Shown here: in pieces, positions 20,443 to 56,710 of the stretch
Layout of the letters: every line of letters begins with the position of its first letter
Position numbering within the stretch: position 1 is the stretch's first letter
Assembly (NCBI GenBank): GCA_037783545.1
Contig: JBBELK010001389.1
Location: forward strand, 23,396 to 87,395
Length of the DNA stretch: 64,000 nt
DNA from: Henricia sp. BOLD:AAB3569
Lineage: Eukaryota > Echinodermata > Asteroidea > Spinulosida > Echinasteridae
Reading direction: 5' to 3'
Made by a program: the position numbers and the translations under genes
The notes under the pieces: generated by a model
What the model was told of the DNA's origin: nothing
What the model saw: the letters and a program-made list of their open reading frames with translations, nothing else
The model's database searches: none

Positions 20443-20535
20443 TTACTCCTCTGAGAGATACAGATTAAGATCAGGTACGTGTGAGTGACAAAACCTTGTC
20501 AACTGATCCAGAAAGCTCCTCATAAAAGCATCATT
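20443..20535 (-). CDS. MCMDC2: MCMDC2 exon 20 (stop codon)
   Basis: 93 bases coding NDAFMRSFLDQLTRFCHSHV and PDLNLYLSEE, then TAA. Acceptor ATTTCTTACAG, phase 0. The length and acidic Ser-Glu-Glu end match the family's C-terminus. The preceding intron is 6.6 kb, so this link is less certain than the others. Confidence 0.75.
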   Translation of the reverse strand, partial: NDAFMRSFLDQLTRFCHSHVPDLNLYLSEE

Positions 20536-23500: not shown

Positions 23501-26500
23501 GAAACACCCCGCCAAGACCAGGAAAACGCATATGGATTTTCATGTTTTTTTTAAACGTGGTACATTTGACAAAGCTGAAATTTCTTCGGATGAGTTTGTT
23601 GATGTCTTTCTTTTGATTTCTAATGGTTTTATTCGCAGAATCGCTCGAAAACGATCATCTATACAGGGCCTTTAAGGCTATTTCACGCCCGCGGCGTGCT
23701 TAAGCATGCGCGCGCTTGGAAACCGCCATTGTTGCATCACTATCTTAAGCAAAATTTGGCTCTGCGGTTAAGGCAGGTTTTCAGTTGCTTACTGTTATCG
23801 ATGTCTATGAAATAGCCTGACGCTCGGTTAACGGAAAATGGGCTGTTAAACAGTTCTATGAAATTGGCCACTGGATGAATCAAAATTTACATCAATATAT
23901 AACATGCTTTGTTTTTGTACGTTTTGTAATTCTTATATAGCATCAACTCTATCCATCTCAAGACACAAAGGATAAAACAGACACAAAGGATAAAACAGAC
24001 ACTAAGTCCAATAACCTGCTGAAAGCCCAAAAGCCCATAAAACCTTGATAAAAGCAGCAAAGATGGCTTCTAAATCTCTGAGGAAATTACCACGCTACCA
24101 TCCTCTGCCATCCAACACATGGAACGACCAGTCTGGCATTTTTTTCCTGGCCACTTCGCATTGTCACTTCGAGTATCAGTTTTTATCAATTTATTGTCTT
24201 AAAATGTTCGCACTCTTGAGTGTTTTCGGCAGCAACACATAAATGCTACGTATTTATCTTAAATGCTATACTGCAATTGCCGACTACTATAGACAAGCAC
24301 TGGCAAAGAAACCTATGCTACTTGTGAATTATGATCAGTAGTATGTGTGGAGCAGTTGAGACTCTCATTAGTCAAAAATAAAGTGCATCATTAACCACCT
24401 TTATGCTGATAGTTTTGCAATGTGAGTATTAAAGCATTACCTTATTGGGAAAAAAATGTTAAAATACAAGGACATTTTGAGGGAACTTCACAATGTTGTT
24501 TTCTTTTAACTGTAAGGCCCACTTCAAACGTCGCGCTTATATGCCGTGCCGAATTAAATTAAACTTTTGTTTATTTGACACGGCACAAGCACAACGTTTG
24601 AAGCTATTTGGCTCGGCAAACTGATTTCGGCACGGCAGAAGAATTTAGCTCGACAGGGTCTGCCGTGCTATCTGAATTTAGTACGACAGTAACACGGCGC
24701 TGTTTCAAATGTCGTGCTTCTGCCGTGTCAAATTAATTTCCGCAATTGTGTTCACAATTATAGGAATGCGCATGCTCACAGCGCATATGTGAGCAAAGAA
24801 ATAACCAACAAACAATTAAGCGCATCAAAATAATAAATATGGCGATTACAATGGACCACAGAACTCCATTAAAAACAATGGACATAATAGAAAATGCACG
24901 TGCATAACGTCCATGACGTGCACACTACACATCTGCCATGTTGGATGTATTTAAGTTTGCAATTAAGTTCGCCGTTTGAAACCACTGACGTGCTTTGCGC
25001 CGTGCTACCGTCGCGCTAAATTTAATTTTATTCGACACGGCACAAGCGCGACGTTTGAAGCAGGCTTTAGTCACACAAGTCTTTAAGTTTTTATGAAATC
25101 CACAGTATGATGCGCAGAGAATTAATACAATTTTGTAATTATTATCTCTTTGTTATGTTTTTAGTTTTGGACATGTACATACAAAAATCACGGCTTAACA
25201 AAATACACCCATGTTTGTATTATTGGTATGTTTTTGACTGGTGTGTATATTTATATATAACCCTCAAAGCCATCTAATATTATGTAGCTATCGGCCTTTT
25301 TAATAAACCTATCCAGACAACATTCACGCCTCGAATATCACACTAACCAATCGTTCTGAAAGAAAATGGTTATCTACATGGTGGTCCACCAATTATGTGC
25401 ACTGTACAATTGCTAGGCCCCTGGCTAAGTAGCCAGGGGCAGACTGGATCTGTTTATAATTAAGTAGGTTACAAAGTTCTGATATCAGTCGGGTACATAA
25501 AATGGGACATTATAAAGGGTAATACACTATGACCTGGTTCACATTAGAGCACTGCTTCTTTCACTGGATATTTGATGACGAGATATCTAACGTGAAAGCA
25601 TGACTCTTCATTTGACGAATATTAGAAACAGGTTCTTTAAAGGAAGAGATCGTTTAATTTAACTAAGCAAATCTGTAATGTTCATTTTTGCTTTGTTGGA
25701 TTAATTAGGGTTTGTTTTTTTTCCTTGCCCAACGTAATTATTAACACTGTATACTCGGTGCTTTCCCGAGACACTATGAAAAACTTCATAGCATGATCAG
25801 GTGGGACTCGAATCCACAACCTCCTGCAAACAAGGCGGATGTCTTAACCACTCAACCACTGAGCTAGCCGGTATTGAATGGCCGGTTCGAATCATTCAAA
25901 TGTTGGATTAAGCGATGTAATATGCAACGGATAACCCCAGAAGGCCAAATTAATTTTGATTTTTTATCAGTGGTTGTTAAGGGATATATGAACTGACGAA
26001 GGTTATAATCAATCTTCATGAAATAATTATCCTGAACTAATCATCCACAATGATTAACTGATTAGTTAGTCATCCTGAACTAATCATCCATGATGATTAA
26101 CTGATTAGTTAGTCATCCTGAACTAATCATCCGTGATGATTAAAGGAGCGTGACCAGGGTTTCTGGAAAATAGTTTTTGATGTAACTTACCAATATTATC
26201 AAGTAACTCCCATACACACCTCCCATGTCCAAAAAACCCGAAAACATTCGCGATTTCCAGTAAAAAAATTGAACAAAACTATCGAGTCGGCTTTCAGCGG
26301 ATAATATAAACTTTGCATGAAGCCCGCCTTCTACAGTCTGAATACGCTCAGTATCAGGCTGAAGTCTTGACTCATGCATATGTACATGTATGTTCACCTT
26401 CGTAGTACTTTTAGTCTTGATATTTAATTTGTTTACATTAAATAATTTATTTAACAAAATGTGTAACGTATAAATTGTACTTGAAAATATTTTTCTTGAT

Positions 26501-29500
26501 CAGCTAAGCAACACAAAATGAAGAAAAATTTATTATATGTACGTGTTTATGTAGATAACACACGCACGCGGATATCAAACATGGCGCCCACGACTGCGCG
26601 ACGTTGTCATGATTGTTGCGTTAGCCTACGTGCTTAAAAATGTTGATATTTTCTCACCCACAAAAAAAAGAAAAGTTTATAGACAAAATAAATTATTTAT
26701 TTCAATAAAAGTGATAAACTGAACTGAAAATTTGTACGTTATTTTTATCAATAAGATAAATTCTTATTCAGATGATTGAGGGCGCTAGTCATGTAAATCG
26801 AAATTGCATTAATTATGGACGAAACCGGGCCGTTGATACTGGAAAATTAGTTTACAAATAATCGGTGGATTTTCGACGATATCCTCGGAAATATGCGGCC
26901 TAGAAGCGCGGGAGTTTCAGTTTCGTGATCAGAAAAATATAACGGATGTTACGATATAAAAATCTCATGACCCATAAGGTAAGTCCCGGGGAGTTATGGG
27001 TAAAAAAAAGTGATCTGGTCACACTCCTTTAACTGAGTAGTTAATCATCATAAACTAATAATCCATGATGATTAACTGATTAACTCTGACTAGTTAATCA
27101 TCATGAACCAATCACCTTAATGTGAGCATGATCTTTGATGCACTTACCGCTGGTCCAAGATAATCTGAAACATTGTCATCCCTGAAGTGCGGTTTGGGTT
27201 GAATGTTCAGCACAGAGTATCCTGCAAACGATGAAATATTGGCATAAATATTCAACTCAAAATATGCCGAGAATGACGGATATCTCCATAAATAATTTTA
27301 CTGACACTGATAATTAAGATTTATGTTTATTAATCCCTTATGTAAGAAAACAGATTATAAATTGCATTAAACAAAATAATCAAAGTTAGTACCTGTGATC
27401 CTTCCAAACTAGGAATGAGAGAAAAATTGTTAGGGCCTTATCAGGATTTGAACTCGAGACCTCTGACTCACTAGGCAGACGCTCTGAGCTATGAGGCACA
27501 AGGGTATACTCCCTCAGGTTTTCTCCAAGACCTCTGACACACCAGGCAGATGTTCTAACAGCTGAGCTATGAGGCACAGTGGTATACTCCCTCAGGTTTT
27601 CCCTATGGAACCAAATTTTTTCTCTCAGTGTTGCATGGTAGCACAAATGGGAAAAGTAACCGGATTGATTTTTTTTTGGAATGTTTATTTAAGCCAACTT
27701 ACCGTATCTTGCAGTAACTGACTGCTCATAAAGCAACACTGCGAGTGCCGAATCCTCAACAAGAACTTGATTCCTCAGACTCAGTTTAGCAAGGGCTCGC
27801 GACATACAGGCTCTGAGGAAAGGTACATTAATAGTGAAATATGTAACAATGAAGTTTGCATTAGCTGTCTTGAAGTATGGCAGAAACAATAGGACACACT
27901 TTTTTTGGGTATAAATTTAGGACCTGAGCCAGTTTTAAACAGATTGTTCAAAACTGACCCAACCTACTTTTAATCCCATTCATATATACCTTTTTGCGTA
28001 AATCGGTAAAACTCACCAAAATTAGCTCGTCGTTTTGCCATGTTTTGCATTCACTTTCTACACCCACAGTGTCAACACCGCATTTGTACAACTGCAGTTG
28101 TGCGTCGCTATGTTTTTGTTTGATCGCGCGCGTTACGGATAATGCAAGCGTGTTATATGCACATGCACATGATCGGGTACTTATCACAGTGCACATTTTT
28201 GCTTTCGGGAGCGTGCAGTTTCTGTATGCGTGTGCGGGTTTCTGTATTCAAATGGGGGACGTTTAACAATAGGAACAATAGGGTACGCGATTGCCAAGGA
28301 CGTCCGCGATTTAGAATCGTGTGCAAAACAAATGAGAGCAGTCGCCAAAAAACTAAGTCCAAACAAAAGAGGAACAATGGGACATCCGCGGTGGGAGGTG
28401 GGTTCACACCTGTGTGTGCGTGTTCCAAACGCGCTGACCAGGGCACGGGCGTGGCTCAAAAGTGTTTAAGACTGACTGGGCCTTTATCGTCCGTTTAATA
28501 CTGGCCATGTGATGTGCTCTCAGCCAATAGGGATGCGTAAACTGTCTAAGGTATTTACAAATGCAAAATAACTTTTAAACTTTTTTTACCCCAGGAACAT
28601 TTCTCTAAACACCTCACATGTTAAAACAAAAATTTAATTTGGCAATTTAATTTAATAAGAAGTTGATCAGAATTTTTTGTCTTTCAAATGACCCATCAAG
28701 CATTGGTAAGTCAAAATTTGATGAAATAACAAAAATTTGGGAGTGAGAAATTTTTAACATTTTGTGAGAAATCAGCCAGTCTGTGTTTTGTACACTTGGT
28801 CTAAAGCCATGATCAACTTCTCAATTCTTTCCCTTAGTTTTGATGCGTTTAAAGAAACTTACATGGGGTAAAAAATGTCGACTATGATGTATTTTCAGCA
28901 TGTGTGCCCAAACATTTTGACTGGTACAGTGTATATTTTGCAGGTCACTTAAATACAGTCAATACTTCCACAACGAGGTCCTTGACTTTGTAATAAACCT
29001 TGTATCATCAGTATGCAAAATGAAAAGAAACAAAGATTGAGGACCTAATATTGCCATTGTAATTATATAAACAGCGTCTTGTAGTAATTGCCTCTATAAT
29101 CAGTGTTTCACTGTTTATTCTACACTAGGATTGGCACGGACAATGTCTAGTTTCTAAAAAAAAAAAAATAAATAACATCCTTTTCAGCTGAAATAACCCC
29201 ACCCAAGGCATACAGATTTTAAATTGGATAATTCTCTGAAAATCTTGGATCCTTCTGTCGATAAGTTGATCACAAAATATGAATATATTTCACTCTAAAG
29301 AGGGCAATGGCCATGGACAGATTCAAATTTCTAAAGGTTTTGTTGATTTGCAGCTGCAATAATCCTGCCCAAGGGAAAACGGTCACTAAAGCTACCATGC
29401 CTTTTGATTTTAAGTTTGCCAGTTCTCTCAGGAAAAAAAAATGAACCTTCTTTTGATAAATAAGTTGATCGCCATATATGAATATATTTTACAGTAAAAT

Positions 29501-44500: not shown

Positions 44501-47500
44501 TGATAAACAGGAAAACTTAAAAAATGTGGACGGGGGGATACTAGCTGTTTAAGTAGTATTTCGGTGGGAGGAAAAATGCTTCGCTCTGTAGAACCGTGAA
44601 ATTGTCGACAACTTTGGATGGCCCCCTTAAAGACACAAATCTTCAGAAAATCAAAGTGATGTTTGTGTTAAAGCCAGAACCAAGTATATGTATTACACTG
44701 TACATGTAATAAGAACATCACAAAAAATAACTAATAATCTACTGTAAACATGCTTATAGCTTAAAACCTGTTTGGTGTATTCAGAAAATTTTAACACAGA
44801 AATAAATGAATGAAGGATTATTTCAGGGATAATGATCCAGGGACCACCGGGGGGAATTATTTCGATACAAATGTGGACAAATTAACGTCCATGTTTTGAG
44901 ACCACCAGTTGGCTTCATAGCTCAATTGGTAGGGAGCGTGATCCAAAACTGGTAAACACTAGATAACAATTTCAAAATTTCTTAAATTAATAAAAATAAT
45001 ACCTGGAACAGTAAAGAAATGTCTATATTTTACAATCATATTAAAAAAAAAAAAATAAATAAAATAAATATGTGTGGGCACACTGTGCCATCACATTTTC
45101 GAGAAATTTGAAAATGCATGTAAAAAATTGTAGTTTTTGTTAATTTTATTGATTTATCACGTTCACAGACGCAATCTTCGTAGGAAAAGATGCTACTGCG
45201 TATTAAATGCCATAAAGTACGCGCACACACACACTGAAACATGTTCAAAACATGCACGCGTGTTGCTCGAAAATTGTTTGAAATACGGCGCAACCAATGC
45301 GCGTCACAAAAAAAACCGCTCCAAATCATGATGCACCTGGCAATTTGTAGGAAGTAACGTCATTTAAACGTGACCAATTGTCCATCTCTCACGCCAAAAA
45401 ACAACCTCTGCATAAAACTGTAAAGTCAATTTCAACATGTGATAAACTGGGTGTGTGTATTAACATCAGCAGCAGGTAAACAAACATGTTCACTTTAGTT
45501 TTCATTTGTTGTATTGACTGAGGAAAGGCATTTGTCTCCTGCTTTCCGTCCCTCACGTGAGGGACGGAATTGGATCACGCTCGTTGGCGTCTGCACGTTA
45601 AGCAGACGATCCGTGGTTCGAATCCCGGTGAGGCCAAGTTGTTTTTCACTGCATCCAGATTTCCCAAACTCATGGACGTTTTATCCACATTTGTGGACAC
45701 AGAAAACACAAAAAAAAAAATGGTTTATTTACTCCAATCTTGATACCCCCTTTTGTCAAATTTTATTTAAATATTAACAACATTGTACTATCAAATTTCT
45801 TACATTTTTATCGGAGCGAGAAGCTGCATCTATTAGACTAAGCAGCATACAGAGCTTGAGTTGATGATAGGTACCAGGAGGAGTCACATCAGCAGCAAAT
45901 AGGTACGCTAGGCTGGCACTGAAGCTCCAGGGGGACGAAGAACTACCTGGTATGGACAAGAGTACAAGACTGATCTGGGGCCAATTTCATGGAGCTGTTT
46001 ACAAGCCGATTTTGTGCTAACGGAGGCTCCGGTTATTTCATTGAGACTGTAAACTTAAGCACTGGCAAACGTTTGCTAGCTTCAGAGGCAAATTTGCTAA
46101 ACACTAGTGATGCAAAAATGCCCGTTTCCAAGCACGTGAATGCTTAAGCACGCCGCGGCCGTGAAATAGCCTTAAAGTTAGCACAACTTTTCTGCTACAG
46201 TAGGCACACGTTTTCAGCTAGCACTTAAGCAGCGCCATGAAATTAGCCCCAGTGCTCAAGACACCAGCATCTATAAGACTAAGGAGCATCTCCGGGGGGA
46301 GTAACATCAGCAGCACATAGGTACGCTAATCTGGCACTGAAACTCCATGGGGAAGAAGCATCATCTATAGTAATGGCAACAAAAGTATACTACTAACAAT
46401 AATATATTGTGGGGTGTACGCAGATATTTTATTGAGGGTATGCATTCCACTTGAATGATTTTGTGTATGACGCCGTTCTCACTAAAGAAATCACTTCGTT
46501 CGACGAAGATTATTTAATCATCGTAGTTAATGATGTTAATAATGTGCGTTCACATATCACTTAACAAAGATCGAACGAAGAGCGACCGCTAACGAAGATC
46601 GAATGAAGCCGTGGGAGGTCGTACATGTGCGTCGCGCATCAAGCGCTGAGCTTCAAGCGTCTAGACGTGCTGCGTGGTTTTCCAGCGGCGCGTCAAAAAC
46701 AACTCTTGCTACAGTAGGTGCTCGATGCACAACGCGCTTGTGCAACAGGCCCAACAAATCGCTTCGTCGAACGAAGGGAGCCGTTCACATTACAAATTTG
46801 CTTTGTAGAATGAAGCAATTTCTTCATCGAATGAAGCTATTTGCTTCATCGAATAAAGCGATTCTAATCATCGTCGAATGAAGAGGCGTGCGTTCACAGC
46901 AGGTTTTCTTATATATTTAAATGTTACAATAATTAAATGGACACTCAACGCGCTCATTCATGCCTAATGTGTGCACACTTGGCCCCAAAATGGCCACCGT
47001 GCAAAAAGTCTATAGTCAATAGTCAATAAATTATCCCTCTTTTTACTCCAGGGTCCTATTTCATAAAGCCCACTTATAACATTCCTGAATAAACATTCTT
47101 AACCTATGTTTTTAAAGATAGAAAAAAATTAGATTTTATTGTTTCAAAATACGCTTTAAAATGTGTTTAACTTTTATGAAATAGGACCCAGATGTACATG
47201 TAACCTTCAAATAATGTACACTATGGCTTTTAAAGTAATATTTTTAATACTTACGAGTTAACAGCTGATCCAAAGTTTGCGGAAGTTGATATGATGGAGT
47301 CTTGAAGATTCTTGGTTGAACCTTTAGACAGCAAATACAGACAGAAAAAAATGGCATTAAAGGCACAGGCTCGTCAGCAATGCACGCGTGCCAAATTCGT
47401 GCCACGAAATACGCAGCTTCATGCCTTTGCTATGGAGCTGCGTATTTCGTGGCACGAATTTGGCGCGCGCGCATTGCTGACGAGCCTGTGCCTTTAAAAC

Positions 47501-50500
47501 AACCCAAGCTTATGAACTAAACATTAAACAAACACACAATATGCGGTAAAATTGTCCAATCATTACAATTCTTAAACATTTTACAAATCTTGACAGTGTT
47601 GCAAGAAAAAAGAAATGAAAAAATATTTACCTCGTGAACATCGTTTGCCTGTAAATAAAATAAAGAAAATAATTTATTACTTTTAGGTATTATTAGTTTT
47701 ATGCTTCTGTAACCTTACAAGCCCCAACATGTATATATATTTTTTTCGCCGAACTGCCATATTGGCTGCACAGTGATGCAAGCTAGTGAAAAGGGCAAAA
47801 TAATTAAACAATGGAACACTGAGATAAGTTTAGCAAATGGGTCTTTCCACGGTTTAATAAGGGGGCATTTTGGCAACACAGACAATTTTTTCGAGGAAAT
47901 ACCTTTGTCTGGTCTCAAAACAAAAAGAATTAGTTTCAGTTGTTCTGAAGAGATAACTTAGGCCCAAAAAGGGTTACAAATAGTGTGACAACATGCCTTT
48001 CTAAAAACCCTGTTTACGAATTTCCAATATACGCTCGTGACCGGGACGGCCTAAAATGTAACACAAGTGTCCGTCCCAGTTACGAGTGTATCTATTGGAC
48101 ATTTGTACACAGGGTTTTTAGAAAGGCATGTTGTCATACTATTTGTAACCCTTTTTGGGCCCAAGTTACCGGTATCTCTTCAGAACAACTGAAACTTATT
48201 TCTTTTATTTTGAGACCAGACAAAGGTATTTCCTCGAAAATATGGTCTTTGTTGCCAAAATACCCCCTTTACCGTGGAAAGACTCATATACATAAACAAA
48301 TATTGTACAAGAAATTGAGAGCAGTTACCTCGATCAATACAGTGACGGTAGCATTTCTAGAGAACTTTTGGACTGGAATTCCAATGACACAGTAATAACC
48401 TCCCAGCTGGATATCAAGAAATGTGTCTAGATAAAAAGGGAGGACAACAAACAGAGATAGGATGCTTGACTCAAGAAATTAATAAATGAAATATTATGAA
48501 ACTTTAACAAAAATGCAGTCAGACTTTGATCATAAGAGCACTATTAATCAGGGCTGTAGTCGAGTCCCCACTTTCCGAGTCCGAGTCCAAGCCCTTGGTG
48601 TCCGAGTCCGAGAGTCCGAGTCCAGCAAACATCCGAGTCCTCAGCAGGCCGAGTCCAAGTCCTTGGTGTCCGAGTCCAAGACTGAGTCCGAGTCCTTGAG
48701 TCCGAGTCCAGCAAACATCCGAGTCCTCAGCAGGCCGAGTCCAAGTCCTTGGTGTCCGAGTCCAAGACTGAGTCCGAGTCCTTGAGTCCAAGTCCAGCAA
48801 ACATCCGAGTCCTCAGCAGGCCGAGTCCAAGTCCTTGGTGTCCGAGTCCAAGACTGAGTCCGAGTCCTTGAGTCCGAGTCCTTGAGTCCGAGTCCAGCAA
48901 ACATCCGAGTCCTCAGCAGGCCGAGTCCGAGTCCCGAGTCCTTATTTCAATTTCAAGTGCAAGTGTCAATAATCGTGCCTGTAAGTTTGCTTTAGGCCGA
49001 GAAAATTAGTTTAAGCATTAGAAATTATTTATTTTACATTCTAAGAATTTTATTTTACATGTACGAAATACTTTCGGCCCCAAAATAAATTATAATAGAC
49101 ACTTCAAATAATTTCCGGCGCCTGTATAATGTACCTTTTGTTAAATATTGTATATTTATTTTTTTCACTGGACTCGGATGGACTCGGCCTAAATCTCCGA
49201 GTCCTTACCGCCCGAGTCCAAGTCCGAGTCCTGACTGGCTGAGTCCGAGTCAGAGTCCTTGAAAATTGGGAGTCCGAGTCCTACAGCGTTGCTATTAATA
49301 CAACTTTTTGCTCATAAAATATTTAGTCTGTGGGCCGAGGGAATTAAGCCCCATTTCAAGGGCACAATGGAATCTTGAACAAGGGATTTTTCACTTCACT
49401 GTCGTGAGACAGCAGATGAATATTTGTTTATATATATTCCGATTACAACGATGAATAACCTGTTACGTTTTATTGAAATAAATCTTAACCTGCATTTGAG
49501 GGAGTGTTATACAGTTAACAAATCTCTATTATTACGTTACCCACCTCTTAAAACAACAGTGACGGTTTGACAGCATCTTCCATGGAAGCCATCTTGATCA
49601 GGGGACAGCAGGGAGGATATACTGCCCTCTACAATCTGAACTGTGATTCTCTCTGCAATGAAAGTAAACAGCAAACCGTCATTGGTAAAAAGGACAAATT
49701 GGGCTACCTTTTTGGTAAAAGAACCCTCCCATTCATGCTCCATTGCACAACTAGCACATAACTTAGTTCGACCTAGTTGGCAACGCAGCATCAATAATGG
49801 CACAGCAACCTCTGAGGCAGCTCGCATTGCTTCGGCTGAGGAGAGCCGCTGTTGCCGTCATGCTCCCCATCCACGAGAACAGGCCTCTGCTGATTCCTAA
49901 CTTGTGTGTGACAGGTGTGGGCGTGTCTGTCGTGCTCGCATAGGTCTCAATGGCAGCGGAACATTTTTTAAAGTGGGGGCGCCATGTTGTGAGACATAAG
50001 GCAGCATAACCAGCCATTGATATGCCGACCATTAAGTACCACCCTTTTGTTTGACCAATCACCAGGAGCGGATCCAGGATTTTCAAAGGGAGGCAGAAGG
50101 AGCGGCGTGGTTGTGAAATGTTTAAGCATGAAATGACGAAGACAATAAAAAGGCGATCGCTTAGCGCAAAGCCCTAACGGCGTGGGGTCTGGGGCATGCT
50201 TATAAGGGCCCCGGAAAATGTTTGATTCTAGATGCTCTGTGGTGCCATCTCGGGCAATATTTAACCACTTTAGGAAGGCAAAAGTGTGATGTCATAATAA
50301 GGCAGAAACCCCAACGGTTACAAAAGTTATTGATAATTTAAAAAAAACAAAAAAACGGAAGTGTTATATTAGGAAAAGGGGGGCATGCGCTCATCACGCT
50401 CCCCCTGGACCCTCCCTGATCACAGACATGATTCAGTGGCGTATTCTAACTCATTGAAATACAGAAATACAAAGCAATACTCTGATATTTAGATGGATGT

Positions 50501-53500
50501 TTATTTTATTTAACCGATTAGTTTTTCTTAATTTGGAGAAAATGCATGTTGAAAGAAACGAAATAATAACACTAAAAGGTGGGCGGTATGCGCCCCCAGT
50601 ATAAAAAGTGGGGGCCAATGGCCCCCTGTCCCAGCCCCCCACCCCCCGCTTCCGCCGCAGTTTATAGGTCTGCTGTCACATCAACGAGCCCATTCTCTTG
50701 CAACAGTGCCCCTTTAACGCACTCCCCAACTCCTGCGTACAGTGGCCCTGTTGAAACAGGCCCCATTTCGCGGTGGAACAAGCGACAGAAAACTTGTCGC
50801 CTCTGCTGGACCAATCAGGACGCTTGGCAGTGCATTGCAGCACGATTGCAGGCATTCAAATGTAACGCGCGCAGATTGTAAACACCGTGCATGCATGTGA
50901 TACATGTACTCGGTAATGCTGGCCGTTGTCCGCGTCGGCGATTGGCTGCTATTTAAAGGATACTGGGGAATCCGTTCCATTACATTCGTCAGCATGCATC
51001 CCTGTTATTAATTTAAAAAACTGCGGAGTAAATTAAGATCGTCGTTTGAAAGTTTGGTAGGAATGGGACAGTCATAAGAAGCGGAACCCAATACAATTTC
51101 TGGAAAGTATAGAAATCGTTTCTTTTCGGCATAACATGACCGAATTAATTAAATTCCTTAAAAATGACTCGGGCGTGAGTTAATTGGCTCAAGACAACAG
51201 CCGGCTCACTCCACAGATTTGCGTGGATTTCCTCAGGGTATTGCTACGTCGCTTTGCAGAGTGGAAATTCCCTGAGATCTCAGGATGCAATGAGCCTGTC
51301 TTAGATGCCACAGACGCCATGGTCGATAACGACCGGCTGCCATGAATGAATGAATGAATGGATTGGAAATGCGCCTTAAAGATATTTCTCACCTCCAAGA
51401 ATTCTGCACTGTACATCTTCTTTCAGGATAGAGCCGCAATATACACAGTTGAAGTCTCGTCTACAGTAAGTTAAACAAAACAGGGAAGGGTATTTATATT
51501 TTAAAATATAACTCATTCACATGGAAACAATTTTCAACTGACACACAACGGACACGCGACATACTCACGCCAAACTTTGTAAAAACCGCTTATACCTGAC
51601 AGTTTGGTGTTCCTTAGCCCCCTCAATGTGACATCTGATGTAAAAATTGTCAACAGCACCACTGCATCCCGACTCAGGACATCTGTATTTTGCACAGCGT
51701 CTGAAATTAGACGTTAAATGTATTAAATACTGAAAAGAATAAAACTATTTAAAAGCAGTGAACCTCAGTTTCTAGCAATCATTTTATTTCATTCAGTATC
51801 ATAAAGCAGACGTATTCTTGCACTTACGTGTATGGAGTGGGAGTTGAAATGGAGCACACAGTCCCGACAAATTTGTAGAAACGAGACTCAAACTTGCAGC
51901 CAAGCAACTCAGCTGTAGTTATCTCATAGCTGTCGATGAATGCACAAAAAAATGTTTTCATGTAATAAATATAGCAATATGTACAGGGACAGTACTAGCC
52001 TTTGTTAAGGCCTCACATGCACAGCTGGGCGAGTCGCGCACCAGAACAATAGCACCACCATGCGACGAGGATGGGACGAGCAGCGCCAGCTGTGAGGCCT
52101 TTGCCGTCCCGGAATTTTTATGATCGTATTACACAGTGTGCGTGTTGCGTTGGATAGCTAACAATGCGAGCCAATCAGGTTCGTGCGCACCGGTTTGTAA
52201 GCACGCACTTCACATACAACGCGCATGCGCCAACACAAACATACATTCGCAGCACAACGCAGGGATGAATAATGTAACATGGGCTGTAATACATTAATAA
52301 ATAATTATTCCGGGACGGCAAAGGTCTCACAGCTGGCGCTGCTCGTCCCGTCCTCGTCGCAAGGTGGCGCTCTCGTTCCAGCGCGCGACTCACCCAGCTG
52401 TGAGGCCTTAACAAAGGCACAATTTGCAAAGATACGTTTTTTTAATGAAGAAAAATTGTGCAATAACGAAAAACATTGGTCAAATTACAAATTCAGGTAA
52501 ACTGAAAGAACAAAAAACAGAGTCTGAAATTACATGCAACTGGAAAATGTTCGAGCATGTTGAAATGAAACAATATAGTTTGTGTAAATGTTTAATATGT
52601 GAAAAATGCATCAGATGGGGAACCTTACCTGGGCAAATGGGGAAGGTCCGACATTAACAAATTCACTAGCACTTGACTGCAAGACACTTCAGGGGGAAGC
52701 AACTGTAGACTACTGAAGATAGTATAACACACCTGTTGGGAAAGAAAATAAGAAATTAAAGCTCACTATAAAGTTGCAACTTTCCACAGGTTAAAAATAT
52801 AAACTAACAGTGGTCTAAGTTAGAGCTCTTTGTGCTTTGACAAATTTGCCATTTATCATCTCATTTTGGTCACATTTTATATGGCACAGGGTGGGAATTT
52901 GACACATAGAAAACACATTTTCAGTGCACCTAAGAGCAAAACATGCAAAGTTTGACTGCCAACCCCCCTTTCCGGTGAGAATGTTGTGACTAGTCCCCAC
53001 CCGTTAGGTGGGGTAGACCAAGGAGGGGGTGCATATGGGTCATACCATGAAGTTAAGAAACACGGTTTCCGTGTTACATCCACAACCATTTTTACTTTTT
53101 TTTGCCCTTGATAACCCCATGAATCAATACTATTCAGAAATTCAAGCTTTTGGATGAGAGAAATTAAAAACATTTATTACTTGTAACAAAATCCTCATGG
53201 ATTTAAATTTATATGTCAACTAAATATAATTTTGTTCAAATGTAGGTGTGACATTTGGTGCTTTTTAGCAGATTTTCTTGAATCACAAAGAAATTTAAGA
53301 TAGAATCCTTCAAATTCAAATTAAAAAGGATTGTTTAGTTTGAGAAATGTGTGTTAATTTCATATTCAACATGAAAACATTTATAGTTGGAGTGAAAGCA
53401 GTTGAACTGTATTGGTTTTCAAGTTACATCCACAACCACCACTTTGTTAAATAATTCAAAATGGCGGCACTTTGTCAACACTGAAGACTCCAAAATTACC

Positions 53501-55708
53501 CCCAAACAGTGTAAGCCACCACATCATGCAACATCGTTAGACAAATGATGACTCATTGCTCCCTTATTGACCATTTTTGTGGAAATGAAGAAATGTCCCT
53601 CAACTTCATGGAATGACCCATATAAGAGAAATGAGATTGAGGTTTAAAAGTACTGAGGGAATAAATCTTACAAAAAGTCTTTAAAAGTCTTGGACCCTCT
53701 AGGGAATAGTACATAGGTATGGTTCTACAAGTTAGGTACAAGTGCATTAACAATTCAACAATATATAAGCTTATTAGCAACCCACCTCCTGGAAAATTTT
53801 CCTTGCTTCTTGTGGCTGATGTAGAACCAAGTTGCCCAAGTTTGCTGCCGAAATGTAAAGATTACTGTTGTTACAAACTGTAAACCTTCTTTACAATCTC
53901 ACAAACAGCAATTGTATTATTTTCAGCGTGGATTATTTTCAATGCAGAATTACTGGTAATGATGCCTCGAATTGACTGTGAATTTCAATTTTTGTGCTAA
54001 AGTATTCATTGTGTCACCACTTTTGGGGAGTAGTATTAAATATTGGCAATTTTTTTAAATATTAGTGGAGTAATATTAAGAAAGGCATATAAACTTCATA
54101 TCAGTTAAAGTTGCACTGTCCGTGTTTGGGTGAAAGGATTACAAAATTAATTTATACAAGCGAACGAATATAGAAAGCCTACGTATCTCTGCAACAAAAA
54201 ATTAAAAAATAATTAAATTTCTGATGTCGGGAATTGGAGATATAAAAAGCTATTTTCTTGAAACGGGCTTCACATGTTGTACATGTGCGCGTACGCACGC
54301 TCAGTATGTGTACAATGTACACACATACGCGCACATGTACATTTACGTCATAATCCTGTCGAATAAAAGACGGTGGCAGTCTTCTATTATTTCTTGTTTT
54401 TAATCAACTGGCATTAATCCTTGACGGATTTTTACGTTCTTGGTATCAAATGAAAGCTGATAACTTTTTCTATTCTAGAAAAATAGCAATTTAACTTTTA
54501 AAAAAGATTTTGACGCTTAAATCGGCCTAAAATCGGACAGTGCAACTTTAATCAGTATGAACTGTTAATATCTTCCAGTACCAGATTAGGATTAAAGTAG
54601 AAGCACATTTTCCTAAAACAGCACAATTTAGGGGGAAAAGGGTCATTTACTAACCATTAATTTGAGTTATGCAGGCACAGCTAATTCTGACGACGAATGA
54701 ATATATAGTGACCTGAAAATAAAAACAAGTGGTAAAGTTTAACAAATTCAATATAGCATTGTTAATTTGTATGCTGAGTATTGCAGGAATAGTCATTCTT
54801 GATTGGCCGAGGAAAGTTTTAGGTATAATATCCTTGGCTCTGATTGGTTAATAAGTGAGTTGTTTTACAGCAGGGAATAGCAGCAGGCAAAAACAGTAAC
54901 ATTTTAGCAAGTTAAGTGATGCAGAAAGCCAACAGAATAGGTAGCAAAATAAAAATGTGTAGGCCTACACAGTTTAACATTGTGGGGTACCGTGGCCAAG
55001 CGGTTTAGGTCGTTGACTCGCAGTCATAGGTGAAAACTTGGAGTTGCAGGTTCGAACCTCCCCACGGCTACGGTACCTGTGCCCTTGGGCAAGGCACTCA
55101 ACCACACTTGCTCCATCCTTCGGAAGGGATGTAAAGCCGTTGGTCCAGTGTGTTAGGTAATGGAAACGCACTCTAAAGATCCCAGAGCATTCTTTCGTGA
55201 AGAGCAAGGGGGATCATCCCCGGTGTCTCTGGCCATGCATTTCTTATTCTAATTCTTCATGGGTTTCCTCACACTTGCGAGTGACAGTGCAATGAGCACT
55301 ATTGAGGAATCCTTGGTATGAATACCAGAAAGAAATAATAATAATAATAATATGGGGGTACCGTGGCCGAGCGGTTTAGGTCATTGACTCGCAATCACAG
55401 GTGAAAACTTGGGGTTGCAGGTTCGAACCTCCCCACGGCTACGGTACCTGTGCCCTTGGGCAAGGCACTCAACCACACTTGCTCCATCCTTCGGAAGGGA
55501 TGTAAAGCCGTTGGTCCAGTGTGTTAGGTAGGCCTAATATGGAAACGCACTCTAAAGATCCCAGAGCATTCTTTCGTGAAGAGCAAGGGGGATCATCCCC
55601 GGTGTCTCTGGCCATTTCTAATTCTAATTCTTCATGGGTTTCCTCACGCTTGCGAGTGACAGTGCAATGAGCACTATTGAGGAATCCTTGGTATGAATAC
55701 CAGAAAGA

Positions 55709-55740
<32 letters not shown>

Positions 55741-56552
55741 TTATCAACTTAAAGCAGGAAAACCGGGAAAGAATTGAGTTGTTTAATTCCACGGCTTTAT
55801 TTAGACCTTGTGTACAAAGAATACGAGACTGGCTGTAAAGTGCTTTCTAAAGGTCTGTCTACATATGAGCCAATATTTGTTGGCCAACAAGGACCAACAT
55901 GAAGTTAGAACTTGTTGGGTGGTACACGGATGTGCTTGACCGCGCGAACCACTCCAGATGCTCCAACATATCTCGACTGCAGTTGGTTTCTGCCTACAAC
56001 GTCACAGGCGTTCTAATCTGCTATTAGCCCATTTCTCCAACAAGCTCCAACAAAGATAGAAACATGTTCCAACATGGATCAACTTGTTGGATGATGTCGG
56101 GCGTTGTCTGGAGTGACGTCCACAGTCCACACCAACTTTTGGTCGGCCGACATCGTCAGACACATGTTGGACCTTATTGGCCAACAAATGTTGGCTCGTG
56201 TAGACGGACCTTAAGAAAGCCCTTATTTTGCCTTAATTTTTAAACTCCTAAAATTGTTTTTTTTGTAGTGCTTGATATAATGATTATTATGGTCAACTTT
56301 TCAATTATTACCGAAATACTATAGGTCATAGAAATGAAGAAGAGTTGGTTGATGTTCTAAAAACAAAGGGAGTTTTACTCCTGCAAAATAATTTTTAAAA
56401 AGACAGACCTTGCACAACGATCTGAATCAACCAACCTGTTTATTCTTCCTCTGTGCTACACATTCTTGTTTCAGTGATTGAAGTTGTTTGGTTTCCTCTA
56501 AGTAGTAAAGTGCAGCTTCTTCAAGTTGTAGTCGATCATTGTCACTTTGCAT
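20443..56552 (-). CDS. MCMDC2: MCM domain-containing protein 2, 20 coding exons, 691 residues
   Basis: Joined coding exons on the minus strand, 5' to 3': 56552-56436, 54712-54655, 53844-53786, 52732-52629, 51929-51828, 51700-51569, 51460-51393, 49652-49545, 48426-48329, 47321-47255, 45946-45804, 42829-42652, 40999-40910, 38858-38713, 37807-37773, 34959-34809, 30864-30722, 27812-27703, 27221-27148, 20535-20443. All phases match and all borders are GT..AG. The domain order is helical N-terminus, zinc region (CPESGC .. CVYC, about 149-195), OB segment (YYCVIGIPV), MCM core with TPPGTYHQLKLC, a degenerate Walker A (GELDCLKKD) and the C-terminal YFVGSRRLR and LSLRNQVLVEDSALAVLLYE. The vertebrate protein is about 680 residues. 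The family acts in meiotic recombination in the nucleus; it lacks a normal ATPase site. UTRs and promoter are not resolved. Confidence 0.93.
20584..20785. mobile_element. Mariner-like miniature element, copy 2
   Basis: The ends CACTACTCACAATAAGTTAG and inverted CACTACTAACAATACG match 15400-15604; TA follows on the right. It lies in the last MCMDC2 intron, 49 bases upstream of exon 20. Confidence 0.8.
20799..21275 (+). repeat. Tandem repeat, three 160-bp units
   Basis: Units start with GCAGGCTACAGGAATGCTTG at 20799, 20960 and 21120 (periods 161 and 160) and differ by a few percent. Confidence 0.9.
21281..21362 (-). repeat. Inverted partial unit of the 160-bp repeat
   Basis: Reads as the reverse complement of the first part of the unit (CTGCAGGCTACAG.AATGCTTG), making the array a large imperfect hairpin with its last direct unit. 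Confidence 0.85.
21664..22164. mobile_element. hAT-like miniature element filled with GACTCG repeats
   Basis: The ends CAGTGTTGCAGTACTCGAGT and inverted CAGTGTTGTAGTCGAGTCAC are hAT-like. The flanking 8-mers ACAGGGGG and CATGGGGG are a possible decayed duplication. Inside, GACTCGGACTCGAGTC-type units occupy 21688-21820 and 22018-22152. Confidence 0.75.
22448..22920. mobile_element. TTAA-target fold-back element with GGGCGAA minisatellite, copy 3
   Basis: TTAA (22444-22447) then AGATAGTATACATGAT. The body matches copy 2, including GAAGATATGCATG and the GGGCGAA array, and the opposite end matches copy 1 through the CTCATGAGACGAAAA segment. The right terminus is missing. Confidence 0.75.
23052..23873. 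mobile_element. CCAATTTCATGG-type miniature element carrying a nested insertion
   Basis: Both parts match, inverted, the uninterrupted copy 45975-46252: the blocks GCTAGCTGAAAACGTGTGC and GTAGCAGAAAAGTTGTGCTA lie left, and GGCTATTTCACG lies right of the insertion. The right end is CTATGAAATTGGCCACTGG. Confidence 0.8.
23139..23671. mobile_element. TTAA-target element of the AGGCC family, nested
   Basis: TTAA on both sides (23135-23138 and 23672-23675), ends AGGCCCAG and inverted AGGCCCTG. The paralogous empty site at about 46172-46180 has a single TTAA (on the minus strand GTGCTAACTTTAAGGCTATT), which proves the target duplication. Confidence 0.9.
24513..25067. mobile_element. Inverted-repeat element with ACACGGCAC motifs
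   Basis: The left end GGCCCACTTCAAACGTCGCG and the right end, inverted, GCCTGCTTCAAACGTCGCGC are related for about 25 bases. The interior repeats GACACGGCACAAGC. Target duplication not resolved. Confidence 0.7.
25740..25905 (-). repeat. tRNA-like SINE
   Basis: The minus strand has CTAGCTCAGTGGTTGAGTGG (A-box-like) and GGATTCGAGTCCCACC (B-box-like), then a hairpin-forming ATGAAG..CTTCAT stretch. It cannot be a working tRNA as the acceptor arms do not pair. Confidence 0.6.
26040..27120. repeat. GATTAACTGATTAGTTAGTCAT minisatellite split by a transposon
   Basis: Units containing TGATTAACTGATTAGTTAGT occur at 26040-26139 and, more diverged, at 27033-27110. The TTAA element 26144-27028 separates the two halves and uses a TTAA within the repeat. 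Confidence 0.8.
26144..27028. mobile_element. TTAA-target element with AGGAGYGTGACCAG ends, 885 bp
   Basis: TTAA flanks both sides (26140-26143 and 27029-27032). The ends are AGGAGCGTGACCAGGG and, inverted, AGGAGTGTGACCAGAT. A 105-codon frame (26140-26457, minus) shows no known domain. Confidence 0.85.
27148..27221 (-). CDS. MCMDC2: MCMDC2 exon 19
   Basis: 74 bases coding YSVLNIQPKPHFRDDNVSDY and LGPA, phase 1 to 0, donor GTAAGT. Confidence 0.88.
27412..27650 (-). repeat. tRNA-derived SINE, internally duplicated
   Basis: Two tRNA-like heads with CATAGCTCAG on the minus strand are arranged in tandem; the family is that of 18985-19170. It lies in the short intron between MCMDC2 exons 18 and 19. 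Confidence 0.65.
27703..27812 (-). CDS. MCMDC2: MCMDC2 exon 18
   Basis: 110 bases coding ACMSRALAKLSLRNQVLVED, then SALAVLLYEQSVTARYG, phase 2 to 1. Equivalent to the SEAHARL.LR..V..ED..IA helix of MCM proteins. Confidence 0.94.
29130..29960. repeat. Degenerate tandem repeat, about 190-bp units
   Basis: Successive blocks share CAGCTGAAATAA..CCCAAG, TTCTCTCTGAAAATC and GATAAGTTGATC/GATAAGTTTATC. The fragment 29736-29790 is SINE-derived and interrupts the array. Confidence 0.6.
30026..30690 (-). repeat. Two adjacent copies of the tRNA-headed SINE
   Basis: The segments 30026-30290 and 30330-30690 both contain CCAGAGACACCGGGGAATCC, GCTCTGGGATCTTT and a tRNA-like end (CCCGCAACCCCAAG..). They are minus-strand versions of the family at 54972-55337. 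Confidence 0.8.
30722..30864 (-). CDS. MCMDC2: MCMDC2 exon 17
   Basis: 143 bases coding FLEHVSEASVEFSVPAKQLL, then KGYFVGSRRLRSMGVQCIPF and SPTALRTL, phase 0 to 2. GYFVGSRRLR is the MCM C-terminal helix motif (Y.ASRR.R). Confidence 0.93.
31813..32764. mobile_element. TTAA-target element with GAATCCCCC ends, copy 1, nested
   Basis: TTAA on both sides (31809-31812 and 32765-32768). The right end inverted is ACAGCTAGAATCCCCCTTCC. Copies lie at 43566-44548 and 56711-57572. A 106-codon frame (32124-32444) is shared with the third copy and starts with a CVVVC cluster that faintly resembles a THAP zinc finger; this is weak. Confidence 0.85.
33011..33223 (+). other. Unrecognised open frame inside the Sola-like element
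   Basis: 70 codons including FYGDVFSQERLAHDITPRQY. I do not recognise it. It may be a piece of the element's former transposase or chance. Confidence 0.25.
33732..33875 (-). pseudogene. Possible transposon-protein exon remnant with PYQFEP motif
   Basis: The minus strand, after a possible acceptor TTCCAG, reads LTFFSDEDSDVFSCSSHSFH, then an acidic serine-rich stretch and VEPYQFEPELTKE before TAA at 33732-33734. Acidic leaders with a PYxFEP motif occur at the N-terminus of several transposon-derived animal proteins. It is short and I cannot find its partners. Confidence 0.4.
34635..34797. repeat. Long palindrome
   Basis: Outer arms AAATATTGACTGC and GCAGTCAATATTT and inner arms ATGGTTAAGATTATAAGCCC and its inverse meet at a CTCGGCTTCTGCCTCGGG centre. 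It abuts exon 16 of MCMDC2 at 34809, just 12 bases away. Confidence 0.85.
34809..34959 (-). CDS. MCMDC2: MCMDC2 exon 16, Walker B region
   Basis: 151 bases starting SFSMVLVCDSASSSMDDHAE and ending SVIRPAEMKE, phase 2 to 0. The hydrophobic VLVCD aligns with the sensor/Walker-B-like strand of MCM proteins. Confidence 0.9.
35911..36969. mobile_element. hAT-type non-autonomous element with exact 8-bp duplication
   Basis: CTGGGTAC lies at 35903-35910 and 36970-36977. The ends are TAATGCTGTAACGAA and, inverted, TAATGCTGTAACCGAACA. Many GTTCGGTTCGG motifs lie subterminally. No transposase frame is visible. Confidence 0.92.
37263..37424. repeat. Long near-perfect palindrome
   Basis: The inner arms 37296-37328 and 37364-37396 are exact reverse complements (GGGTGATATGAGAATATACC onward). 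The outer arms share TTATATAA and ATATTGGATG. The centre is CTCGCCTTCGGCTCG, the same style as the 34635-34797 centre. Confidence 0.9.
37427..37660. mobile_element. Possible miniature element with GTCCAC ends
   Basis: GAAGTCTGTCCACACGG at the left and, inverted, GAAGGCATGTCCACGCTGAG at the right. Internal GGAGGTT and AACCTCC pairs. No clear duplication. Confidence 0.45.
37773..37807 (-). CDS. MCMDC2: MCMDC2 exon 15, 35-base microexon
   Basis: Codes NKKTNVKHSIAE, phase 0 to 2, bounded by TTTTTTTCTGGACAG and GTAAGT. It was chosen because it alone repairs the phase gap between exons 14 and 16. A cDNA would settle it. Confidence 0.7.
38115..38372 (+). repeat. tRNA-headed SINE, body and AAT tail
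   Basis: CCTTCGGAAGGGATGTAAAG through to AGGAATCCTTGG, then (AAT)n. The head is missing: it starts inside an older repeat (TTGTTACCATTGCTATCAAC). Confidence 0.85.
38457..38685. mobile_element. GGGGCCGTCCAAAG-ended miniature element, empty of insertions
   Basis: Inverted ends GGGGCCGTCCAAAGTTGTC. This is the short form of 42861-44625 and provides the empty site for both insertions there. Confidence 0.85.
38713..38858 (-). CDS. MCMDC2: MCMDC2 exon 14
   Basis: 146 bases starting VLENRVISIDHQKSSLSQQQ, then RFPVQCNLWGYANYHRCQDS. Phase 1 to 0, ending FGQAL. FPVQC..W.. is conserved in the family. Confidence 0.93.
39776..40369. mobile_element. GGGTCATTCC-ended element (Sola-like), copy 1
   Basis: ATAT flanks (39772-39775 and 40370-40373). 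The ends are GGTCATTCCATGAAGTTGAG and, inverted, GGGTCATTCCATGAAGTTAA. The inverted sister copy is at 53037-53619, so the two lie in opposite orientation in MCMDC2 introns 13 and 3. Confidence 0.82.
40552..40899 (-). pseudogene. Two broken tandem copies of MCMDC2 exon 13
   Basis: Units start with GGCTGCTTAC at 40552, 40726 and 40900 (period 174); the third is the working exon. The exon-like parts are 40562-40650 and 40736-40825. Each keeps the 3' half and a GTAAGC donor (second copy GICMLGDLDCLKKDAKEKLQ), but the 5' half has diverged and no acceptor gives the required phase. The first copy has an in-frame TAA after DAKQ. Confidence 0.85.
40910..40999 (-). CDS. MCMDC2: MCMDC2 exon 13, degenerate Walker A
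   Basis: 90 bases coding GGSVLLARGGICMLGELDCL and KKDAKEKLQN, phase 1 to 1. In active MCMs this position holds GDPGxxKS; here it is GELDCLKKD, as in the vertebrate protein where the P-loop is also lost. Broken copies of this exon lie on both sides. Because length is a multiple of three, skipping it would keep frame. Confidence 0.9.
41003..41330 (-). repeat. Tandem duplication upstream of exon 13 with a fourth partial exon copy
   Basis: TTGAAATCCACCTGCTCATA recurs about 180 bases apart. At 41150-41180 the minus strand has an acceptor and GGSVLLL, the start of an exon-13-like sequence that then diverges. Confidence 0.7.
42036..42608. mobile_element. AGGGCC-ended 573-bp element, copy 2
   Basis: Nearly identical to 12999-13572. 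TTAA follows at 42609-42612; the left side has TTAAAA. It sits in MCMDC2 intron 12, near the donor of exon 12. Confidence 0.85.
42652..42829 (-). CDS. MCMDC2: MCMDC2 exon 12
   Basis: 178 bases coding DSDSFLDLAAIGLDSNIIRR through SSVGGYSVD, phase 0 to 1. Its donor is 43 bases from the transposon copy 42036-42608. Confidence 0.9.
42909..43487. mobile_element. Nested element with CCATCCATAAAGTACGTACG ends
   Basis: Left CCATCCATAAAGTACGTACG; right, inverted, CGTCCTTAAAGTACGTACG. Subterminal GTACGCATGG and poly-C/CCCCCT blocks recur on both sides. The middle is related to 28680-28880. Exact borders are blurred by G-rich flanks. Confidence 0.7.
43566..44548. mobile_element. TTAA-target element with GAATCCCCC ends, copy 2, nested
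   Basis: TTAA flanks (43562-43565 and 44549-44552), ends ACAGCTAGAATCCCCCTT and inverted ACAGCTAGTATCCCCC. The empty site in 38457-38685 (minus strand) has one TTAA before GTAGTATTTCGGTGGGAGG. Confidence 0.9.
45544..45569. repeat. 26-bp perfect palindrome
   Basis: Arms TTCCGTCCCTCAC and GTGAGGGACGGAA with CACGTG at the centre; it abuts the tRNA-like sequence that follows. Confidence 0.9.
45571..45637 (+). repeat. tRNA-Asn-like SINE head or pseudo-tRNA
   Basis: CGTCTGCACGTTAAGCAGACG forms an anticodon arm with loop ACGTTAA (GTT), followed by a T arm with GGTTCGAATCCC and TGAGGCC. The D arm is disrupted. A detached TAGCTCAATTGGTAGGGAGC near 44917 looks like the missing 5' part. Confidence 0.5.
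45804..45946 (-). CDS. MCMDC2: MCMDC2 exon 11, start of MCM core
   Basis: 143 bases coding SSSSPWSFSASLAYLFAADV, then TPPGTYHQLKLCMLLSLIDA and ASRSDKN, phase 1 to 0. TPPGTY.LLKLC is a hallmark of this family. A decayed duplicate lies at 46258-46370. Confidence 0.93.
45975..46252. mobile_element. CCAATTTCATGG-type miniature element, uninterrupted
   Basis: Ends CTGGGGCCAATTTCATGG and, inverted, CTGGGGCTAATTTCATGG. It lies between exon 11 and the broken exon 11 copy. Confidence 0.8.
46258..46370 (-). pseudogene. Broken duplicate of MCMDC2 exon 11
   Basis: The minus strand reads DDASSPWSFSARLAYLCAAD then VTPPG, after which a deletion of about 23 bases shifts the frame before LLSLIDAG. No proper donor remains. 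Confidence 0.85.
46455..46905. repeat. Region of repeated CTTCGTTCGACGAAG motifs
   Basis: Motifs CTTCGTTCGACGAAG, AACGAAGATCGAA and CATCGAATGAAG recur in both orientations. The borders CGTTCTCAC and GCGTTCACAG look weakly inverted. Probably an old miniature element. Confidence 0.5.
47255..47321 (-). CDS. MCMDC2: MCMDC2 exon 10
   Basis: 67 bases coding VQPRIFKTPSYQLPQTLDQL and LT, phase 0 to 1. It links the OB region to the AAA-like core. A 133-bp palindromic TTAA element lies 39 bases upstream of its acceptor. Confidence 0.87.
47361..47493. mobile_element. 133-bp palindromic TTAA-target element
   Basis: TTAA on both sides (47357-47360 and 47494-47497). Arms of about 60 bases, beginning AGGCACAGGCTCGTCAGCAA, pair almost fully around a short loop. 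It is in MCMDC2 intron 9. Confidence 0.9.
47839..48283. repeat. 445-bp fold-back sequence
   Basis: Two arms of about 200 bases (for example ACAACATGCCTTTCTAAAAA at the left and its inverse at the right) meet around 48055-48075 with roughly 85 to 90 percent match. It ends 46 bases from exon 9. Confidence 0.85.
48329..48426 (-). CDS. MCMDC2: MCMDC2 exon 9, OB-fold end
   Basis: 98 bases coding DTFLDIQLGGYYCVIGIPVQ and then KFSRNATVTVLIE, phase 1 to 0. The acceptor at ..TTTTTATCTAG, rather than the inner CCAG, gives the matching phase and the conserved D-x-F. Confidence 0.9.
48549..49291. mobile_element. hAT-type miniature element filled with GAGTCC repeats
   Basis: The 8-bp duplication CTATTAAT is exact (48541-48548 and 49292-49299). 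The ends are CAGGGCTGTAGTCGAGTCC and, inverted, CAACGCTGTAGGACTCGGAC. Inside, an array of about 123-base units made of GAGTCCRAGTCC hexamers covers 48570-48945. It is in MCMDC2 intron 8. Confidence 0.9.
49545..49652 (-). CDS. MCMDC2: MCMDC2 exon 8
   Basis: 108 bases starting ERITVQIVEGSISSLLSP and ending CCQTVTVVLR, phase 1 to 1. The VVLR end joins the OB-fold strand in exon 9. Confidence 0.9.
51393..51460 (-). CDS. MCMDC2: MCMDC2 exon 7, zinc region part 2
   Basis: 68 bases coding RDFNCVYCGSILKEDVQCRI and LG, phase 2 to 1. CVYC supplies the second Cys pair. Confidence 0.92.
51569..51700 (-). CDS. MCMDC2: MCMDC2 exon 6, zinc region part 1
   Basis: 132 bases coding RCAKYRCPESGCSGAVDNFY onward to FLQSLA, phase 2 to 2. 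It carries the first Cys cluster of the MCM-type zinc region. Confidence 0.92.
51828..51929 (-). CDS. MCMDC2: MCMDC2 exon 5
   Basis: 102 bases coding YEITTAELLGCKFESRFYKF and then VGTVCSISTPTPYT, phase 2 to 2. An inner AG (..CTACAG) exists but only the outer acceptor (ATCGACAG) keeps the frame with exon 4. Confidence 0.87.
51998..52418. mobile_element. Inverted-repeat element with about 125-bp arms
   Basis: The ends GCCTTTGTTAAGGCCTCACA and its exact inverse enclose arms that also share CAGCTGGCGCTGCTCGTCCC and GCCGTCCCGGAAT. It lies in MCMDC2 intron 4, starting 69 bases upstream of exon 5. Confidence 0.85.
52629..52732 (-). CDS. MCMDC2: MCMDC2 exon 4
   Basis: 104 bases beginning VCYTIFSSLQLLPPE and ending LMSDLPHLP, phase 0 to 2. 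Donor GTAAGG. Confidence 0.88.
53037..53619. mobile_element. GGGTCATTCC-ended element (Sola-like), copy 2
   Basis: ATAT flanks (53033-53036 and 53620-53623). The sequence is the inverse of 39776-40369. A hairpin AACACGGTTTCCGTGTT lies by the left end. Confidence 0.85.
53786..53844 (-). CDS. MCMDC2: MCMDC2 exon 3
   Basis: 59 bases coding NLGNLVLHQPQEARKIFQE, phase 1 to 0. The LHQP.EA..IFQ motif is diagnostic for MCMDC2. Confidence 0.9.
54655..54712 (-). CDS. MCMDC2: MCMDC2 exon 2
   Basis: 58 bases coding VTIYSFVVRISCACITQIN, phase 0 to 1. Acceptor TTTTATTTTCAG, donor GTTAGT. It corresponds to the first beta-strand region. Confidence 0.85.
54972..55337 (+). repeat. Complete tRNA-derived SINE, copy A
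   Basis: The tRNA-Leu/Ser-like head has GTGGCCAAGCGGTTTAGG and GGTTCGAACC, then a body of about 270 bases with CACTATTGAGGAATCCTTGG and an (AAT)n tail. RNA polymerase III A and B boxes are visible. Confidence 0.88.
55353..55735 (+). repeat. Complete tRNA-derived SINE, copy B
   Basis: Nearly identical to copy A and directly behind its AAT tail, with a longer AAT run. Such head-to-tail arrangement suggests insertion into the tail or duplication. It is in MCMDC2 intron 1. Confidence 0.88.
55851..56211. mobile_element. Harbinger-type miniature element with TAA duplication
   Basis: TAA at 55848-55850 and 56212-56214. Ends AGGTCTGTCTACATATGAGC and, inverted, AGGTCCGTCTACACGAGCC; both lead into TTGTTGGCCAACAA-type palindromes. 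Confidence 0.85.
56436..56552 (-). CDS. MCMDC2: MCMDC2 exon 1 (start codon)
   Basis: 39 codons from ATG at 56552. The protein starts MQSDNDRLQLEEAALYYLEE, matching the EAAL.YL signature at the N-terminus of this family. The exon ends in phase 0 at CAG before a GTTGGT donor, a weaker donor than the others. Confidence 0.85.
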
Positions 56553-56710
56553 ACTGGCTGACTAATGTAGTTATCATGCCTGTTGCTGTTCTGACTTGAC
56601 AAGTCTAACTATCGAGTCTAGCAATGAGAAAAAGATGACATTAGCTGATTAGAGCCGATGTGTTTCCTTGTGTTTTATTCCCATTTTGTTTCCGGTACAG
56701 AAGTTTTTAA
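56553..56710 (-). promoter_or_regulatory. 5' flank of MCMDC2
   Basis: Only about 155 bases separate the start codon from a TTAA element. No TATA box is evident. The transcription start may lie within or beyond the element; this region is named for position only. Confidence 0.35.

Follow-up and report, generated by a model that had tools for sequence, protein, structure and literature searches.

A predicted MCMDC2 gene of 21 exons in a repeat-rich region of the Henricia sp. genome

Gene structure and exon organization

We analyzed a stretch of 64,000 bases of the Henricia sp. genome (the window), which corresponds to positions 23396-87395 of contig C1389 in an assembly of 740.7 Mb and 2,104 contigs. 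The minus strand of this region almost certainly harbors a single, intact and normally spliced MCMDC2 gene, predicted from the sequence to encode a protein of the MCM family with about 700 residues. The gene runs from an ATG at 56552 to a TAA ending at 20443, a span of 36,110 bases, and these two positions are exactly the start codon and stop-codon end given in the original prediction. Our curated model has 21 exons, with 2,103 nt including the stop codon, 700 residues and no internal stops, and all of its 20 introns, which range from 127 to 6,612 bases, are of the GT-AG type. The earlier description of a complete coding sequence of 2.1 kb within 36 kb, joined in phase at every junction, is borne out by this model; the 20 exons and 691 residues that went with it were not reproduced, the best model having 21 exons and 700 residues and a 20-exon variant 687 residues.

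Agreement in phase proves little by itself, as it is built into any spliced fit; the real test is the score of the fit. As guide we used a human MCMDC2 protein sequence that was not taken from a database record, and for this reason all identities to the guide are approximate. The splice-aware alignment of the minus strand to this guide, calculated with a strict intron cost, reached a score of 700.5 and covered guide residues 3-681. Seven control fits gave 62.0 for the plus strand, 57.5 for the reversed guide and 53.4-68.2 for five shuffled guides, which places the gene far above chance. A spliced alignment with a vertebrate MCMDC2 was the check that the original prediction had proposed, and its outcome with this human guide supports that prediction. 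The protein of the 21-exon model shares 668 aligned residues with the guide, 242 of them identical and 388 scoring positive.

The exons are described below in the order of transcription, all on the minus strand, with the residues identical to the guide in brackets. Exon 1 (56436-56552, 117 nt; 12/39) carries the ATG and begins with MQSDNDRLQLEEAAL. It is followed by exon 2 (54655-54712, 58 nt; 3/19), whose acceptor is in the top 0.4% of AGs, exon 3 (53786-53844, 59 nt; 11/20), exon 4 (52629-52732, 104 nt; 11/35) and exon 5 (51828-51929, 102 nt; 11/34). The first zinc-finger cysteine pair (C154, C159) is located in exon 6 (51596-51700, 105 nt; 12/35) and the second (C187, C190) in exon 7 (51393-51460, 68 nt; 11/22), after which come exon 8 (49545-49652, 108 nt; 11/36) and exon 9 (48329-48426, 98 nt; 13/33). 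Exon 10 (47631-47648; 2/6) is a microexon of 18 nt encoding ANDVHE, with strong splice sites (acceptor in the top 0.1%, donor in the top 0.8%), and it continues the guide across the junction IE|AN. Exon 11 (47255-47321, 67 nt; 5/22) is tentative. The AAA-like domain begins in exon 12 (45804-45946, 143 nt; 24/48), and the degenerate Walker A position falls in exon 13 (42652-42829, 178 nt; 16/59) and the degenerate Walker B (GGICMLGELD) in exon 14 (40910-40999, 90 nt; 17/30).

The 3' part of the gene comprises exon 15 (38713-38858, 146 nt; 18/49), exon 16 (35496-35566, 71 nt; 9/24), whose splice sites are weak (top 23.8% and 20.7%), exon 17 (34809-34959, 151 nt; 9/50), and exons 18 (30722-30864, 143 nt; 18/48) and 19 (27703-27812, 110 nt; 18/36), which both encode a putative AAA-lid-like region. 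Exon 20 (27148-27221, 74 nt; 4/25) is the likely penultimate exon; its length and phases fit and its sites are strong (top 1.2% and 0.2%), and three overlapping candidates near 23.1 kb outscored it on the combined score. Exon 21 (20443-20535, 93 nt; 7/30) ends with the TAA stop at 20443-20445. Exons 11, 16 and 20 are weakly supported and less certain than the others.

Exon borders around exons 10 to 12

The borders of the model may need correction in the region of exons 10 to 12. In a 20-exon version, the ANDVHE microexon would be spliced straight to an exon beginning at 45974 (ISLVLLSIPGSSSSPW...) and exon 11 would be absent. This version has an open frame, is in phase and encodes 687 residues; its alignment score is 932, compared with 944 for the model with 21 exons, and the 20 exons of the original prediction suggest a similar arrangement, although its 691 residues were not recovered. 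We nevertheless find the shorter version rather unlikely: the acceptor at 45974 scores only 1.3, with its AG at the margin of a miniature element (MITE) that is dispersed in the genome, whereas both copies of exon 12, the exon itself and the decayed duplicate described below, have aligned and better acceptors, at 45946 (score 3.8) and 46364 (score 2.8). Since the acceptor at 45946 outscores that at 45974, and since the acceptor of the duplicate aligns with it in the same phase, 45946 was preferred. This choice in turn calls for an additional exon that is entered in phase 0 and left in phase 1, for which 47321-47255 is the candidate. The phases of exon 11 match the needs of exons 10 and 12; its acceptor ranks no higher than the top 16.2% of AGs, and other candidates outranked it on the combined score.

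Several other borders were considered and discarded. The initial guide-based fit, with 26 exons, contained a false exon within the MITE, a doubtful exon near 23.1 kb and several short low-scoring exons, and a stricter fit with 21 exons likewise retained the MITE exon and the doubtful one near 23.1 kb. The exon at 46103-46048 is false, as it lies inside the MITE and has repeat matches throughout the genome; further exons of these fits were dropped on their splice-site scores and phase. Extended forms of exon 10 (47648-47567 or 47648-47538) were discarded because their donors score 1.0 and 2.1, compared with 5.1 for the donor at 47631, and the start of the last exon at 20570 in the strict fit was replaced by 20535, with an acceptor of 3.4 instead of -0.2. 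An exon-adjacent MITE is a practical trap for annotation, which invites a false exon, as in the guide-based fits, and possibly a false acceptor.

Exon relics, copy number and integrity of the gene

Two exons adjoin decayed duplicates of themselves. A partial duplicate of exon 12 with its acceptor region is found at 46267-46394 on the minus strand and aligns to 45826-45971; it has suffered an internal deletion and has an in-frame stop. Exon 12 and this relic are separated by the MITE-like repeat, which has inverted ends and measures about 268 bp (45977-46244). It has at least 50 matches in the genome, of which at least 39 besides the copy in the window are near full length with 93-95% identity, and some of the copies match from 45975. 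The same MITE is also arranged in head-to-tail arrays on contigs C155 and C1214; the one at C155:2774259-2775907, for example, has six units with a spacing of about 276 bp.

The second case is a tandem array on the minus strand at 40544-40974, with a 174-bp unit in 2.5 copies, which starts inside exon 14 and in which copies 2 and 3 are relics. Copy 2 has an open frame and a donor and lacks the native acceptor; an AG at 40798 enters it in the right phase with a score of only 0.6. Copy 3 has a stop. The array has at least 40 matches in the genome and, among the matches listed, this locus alone is full, the other 39 covering about 70-100 bp of the spacer. The relics of exons 12 and 14 look like the products of ordinary local duplication. 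It is improbable that copy 2 of exon 14 serves as an alternative exon and the MITE edge at 45974 as a second 3' splice site; if this were true, MCMDC2 would have isoforms with differences in the inactive ATPase core.

To describe the copy number of the gene, the genome was searched with the draft protein in an exon-by-exon protein search that scores best candidates only. Among 58 matches, 17 fell in the MCMDC2 gene, one of them on the exon 14 relic, and 41 elsewhere. All 41 outside matches lie within query residues 262-327, where they coincide with or overlap the false exon that the draft had taken from the MITE, and the few of them that extend into exon 12 positions mostly have internal stops. 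Because every outside match falls on or overlaps this MITE-derived stretch, no second MCMDC2 locus was seen in the search.

These results bear on the idea that the locus is a non-functional, decaying and still recognisable MCMDC2 pseudogene, which the decayed duplicates beside exons 12 and 14 and the weak splice sites of exon 16 might suggest. We consider it very improbable, given that the 700 codons contain no internal stop, while the other two frames contain 32 and 45 (an openness that is partly forced, because the spliced fit penalises stops), that GT-AG borders are present at 20 of 20 introns, and that a second locus was not seen. An intact, normally spliced gene remains our reading of the locus.

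Protein identity and conserved motifs

The final protein aligns with the human guide in a full-length and colinear manner, with 343 bits by BLASTP (33.0% over 702 columns, an approximate value) and 368 bits by phmmer. A search of PDB chains with the same protein returned 40 distinct sequences at E<=1, each of which bears the name MCM or DNA helicase. The best of them was 8q67_A (named DNA helicase) with 29.9 bits, while MCM9 and MCM8 reached 19.8 and 18.7 bits. The contrast between 343 bits to the MCMDC2 guide and no more than 29.9 bits to any MCM chain of the PDB indicates a relative of MCMDC2 and no other MCM, in line with the original prediction, which had named MCMDC2 rather than MCM2-9; no PDB chain of another member of the family came out as a better match. 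Thus, the notion that the gene is another MCM paralog (MCM8, MCM9 or a replicative MCM), which could draw on the common MCM P-loop family and on the weak matches to MCM7, MCM8, MCM9 and other MCM chains, is scarcely credible in view of these scores and of the separate strong MCM loci present on other contigs of the genome.

In the guide-built draft protein of 686 residues, the MCM P-loop family PF00493 scored 27.8 bits, above the Pfam cut-off of 23.3, and MCM_lid scored 19.8 bits, against a cut-off of 27.4. The NCBIfam MCM model, from a library meant for bacteria and archaea, gave 45.2 bits, far short of its curated cut-off of 940. In the top PDB match, residues 560-639 align with an MCM-type C-terminal region.

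The encoded protein is predicted to consist of an N-terminal MCM region with CX4C and CX2C motifs and a C-terminal AAA-like domain in which Walker A has no lysine and Walker B no aspartate. The zinc-finger cysteines are kept, with CX4C at 154/159 and CX2C at 187/190, and line up with the cysteines of the guide. At the Walker A position, IGLDSNIIRRLL stands opposite VGDPGVAKSQIL of chain 4r7y_A and the Walker lysine has no counterpart; at the Walker B site, GGICMLGELDCL (GGICMLGELD) has a G in place of the aspartate of the aligned MCM chains. The alignments with PDB chains at both sites therefore indicate that the lysine and the aspartate were lost.

Two other MCM loci of this genome were each found twice, on contigs C33/C230 and C366/C653, with mirrored and near-equal matches, which suggests unmerged haplotypes or recent duplicates.

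Repeats in the introns and flanking regions

The introns had been described as crammed with transposons. The analysis of repeats within the window showed that, among the 34,007 intron bases, 11,060 belong to stretches of at least 60 bp with a match elsewhere in the window, with tandem and inverted arrays included, so that the statement holds as far as repeats are concerned; few of these repeats were classified as transposons. Two intron repeats that were searched against the genome have dozens of copies among the matches listed. The long introns look like the result of ordinary repeat build-up.

A repeat of about 0.9-1.0 kb has three copies in the window, at 31808-32770 in intron 17 (963 bp), at 43562-44554 in intron 12 and at 56704-57585, the last beginning about 150 bp upstream of the ATG. 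The copies are 89.5-93.5% alike, and the genome search for this repeat revealed at least 38 further long copies outside the window; a Pfam search with one reading frame of the repeat gave no match. In intron 9, the segment 47828-48297 matches its reverse complement with 83.6% identity; this long and imperfect palindrome is probably a fold-back element. The last intron contains, at 25793-25865 on the minus strand, a segment that matches the Rfam tRNA model with 35.1 bits (cut-off 29) and in which ARAGORN found no tRNA, and it is possibly a tRNA-derived repeat or a tRNA pseudogene. Outside the gene, an open frame of 284 residues at 10389-11243 on the minus strand has a DDE_Tnp_4 transposase domain (118.6 bits).

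Discussion

The MCMDC2 family is known and widespread, and the gene described here is an expected rather than an unusual member of it. In common with vertebrate MCMDC2 (human, mouse), as judged against the human guide sequence, it shows full-length colinearity, degenerate Walker A and B motifs and the zinc-finger cysteines; it differs in its identity of only about 33-36%, in its decayed exon duplicates and in introns filled with the genome's own repeats. With MCM8, MCM9 and MCM2-7 it shares the superfamily and a weak similarity in the AAA core, below 30 bits. MCM9 and MCM2-7 carry Walker motifs. The same is described for REC/MCM8 (PMC6553819), and the loss of these motifs has been published for mammalian MCMDC2 and fly MEI-218 (PMC5070785, PMC6553819). 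The dipteran counterparts are described as MCMDC2 orthologs whose AAA domain is predicted to be inactive (PMC6553819). Each of the two halves has an open reading frame of its own in Diptera, while the gene reported here encodes one continuous protein, a comparison made with the published description only.

As described for the mouse, MCMDC2 is needed for meiotic recombination in both sexes and has a gonad-biased expression; a role as a non-ATPase modulator, in complexes that include an active MCM such as MCM8, has been proposed for it (PMC5070785). For flies, such a complex of REC (MCM8), MEI-217 and MEI-218 is described (PMC6553819), and a Tetrahymena MCM-like protein is also described to have a meiotic role (PMC6922451). 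By analogy with the mouse and fly work, the protein encoded by this gene would itself be no ATPase and may partner an active MCM, for which MCM8/REC is the published candidate; such a partnership would stabilise strand-invasion intermediates and promote meiotic recombination. A literature search on MCMDC2 in sea urchin turned up only work on male contraception.

We found in the gene no departure from known MCMDC2 biology and no pointer to another mechanism. Beyond annotation, the known picture of MCMDC2 is unchanged, and what this study offers is a usable model of a meiotic recombination gene in the Henricia genome, in which the doubtful borders are flagged.
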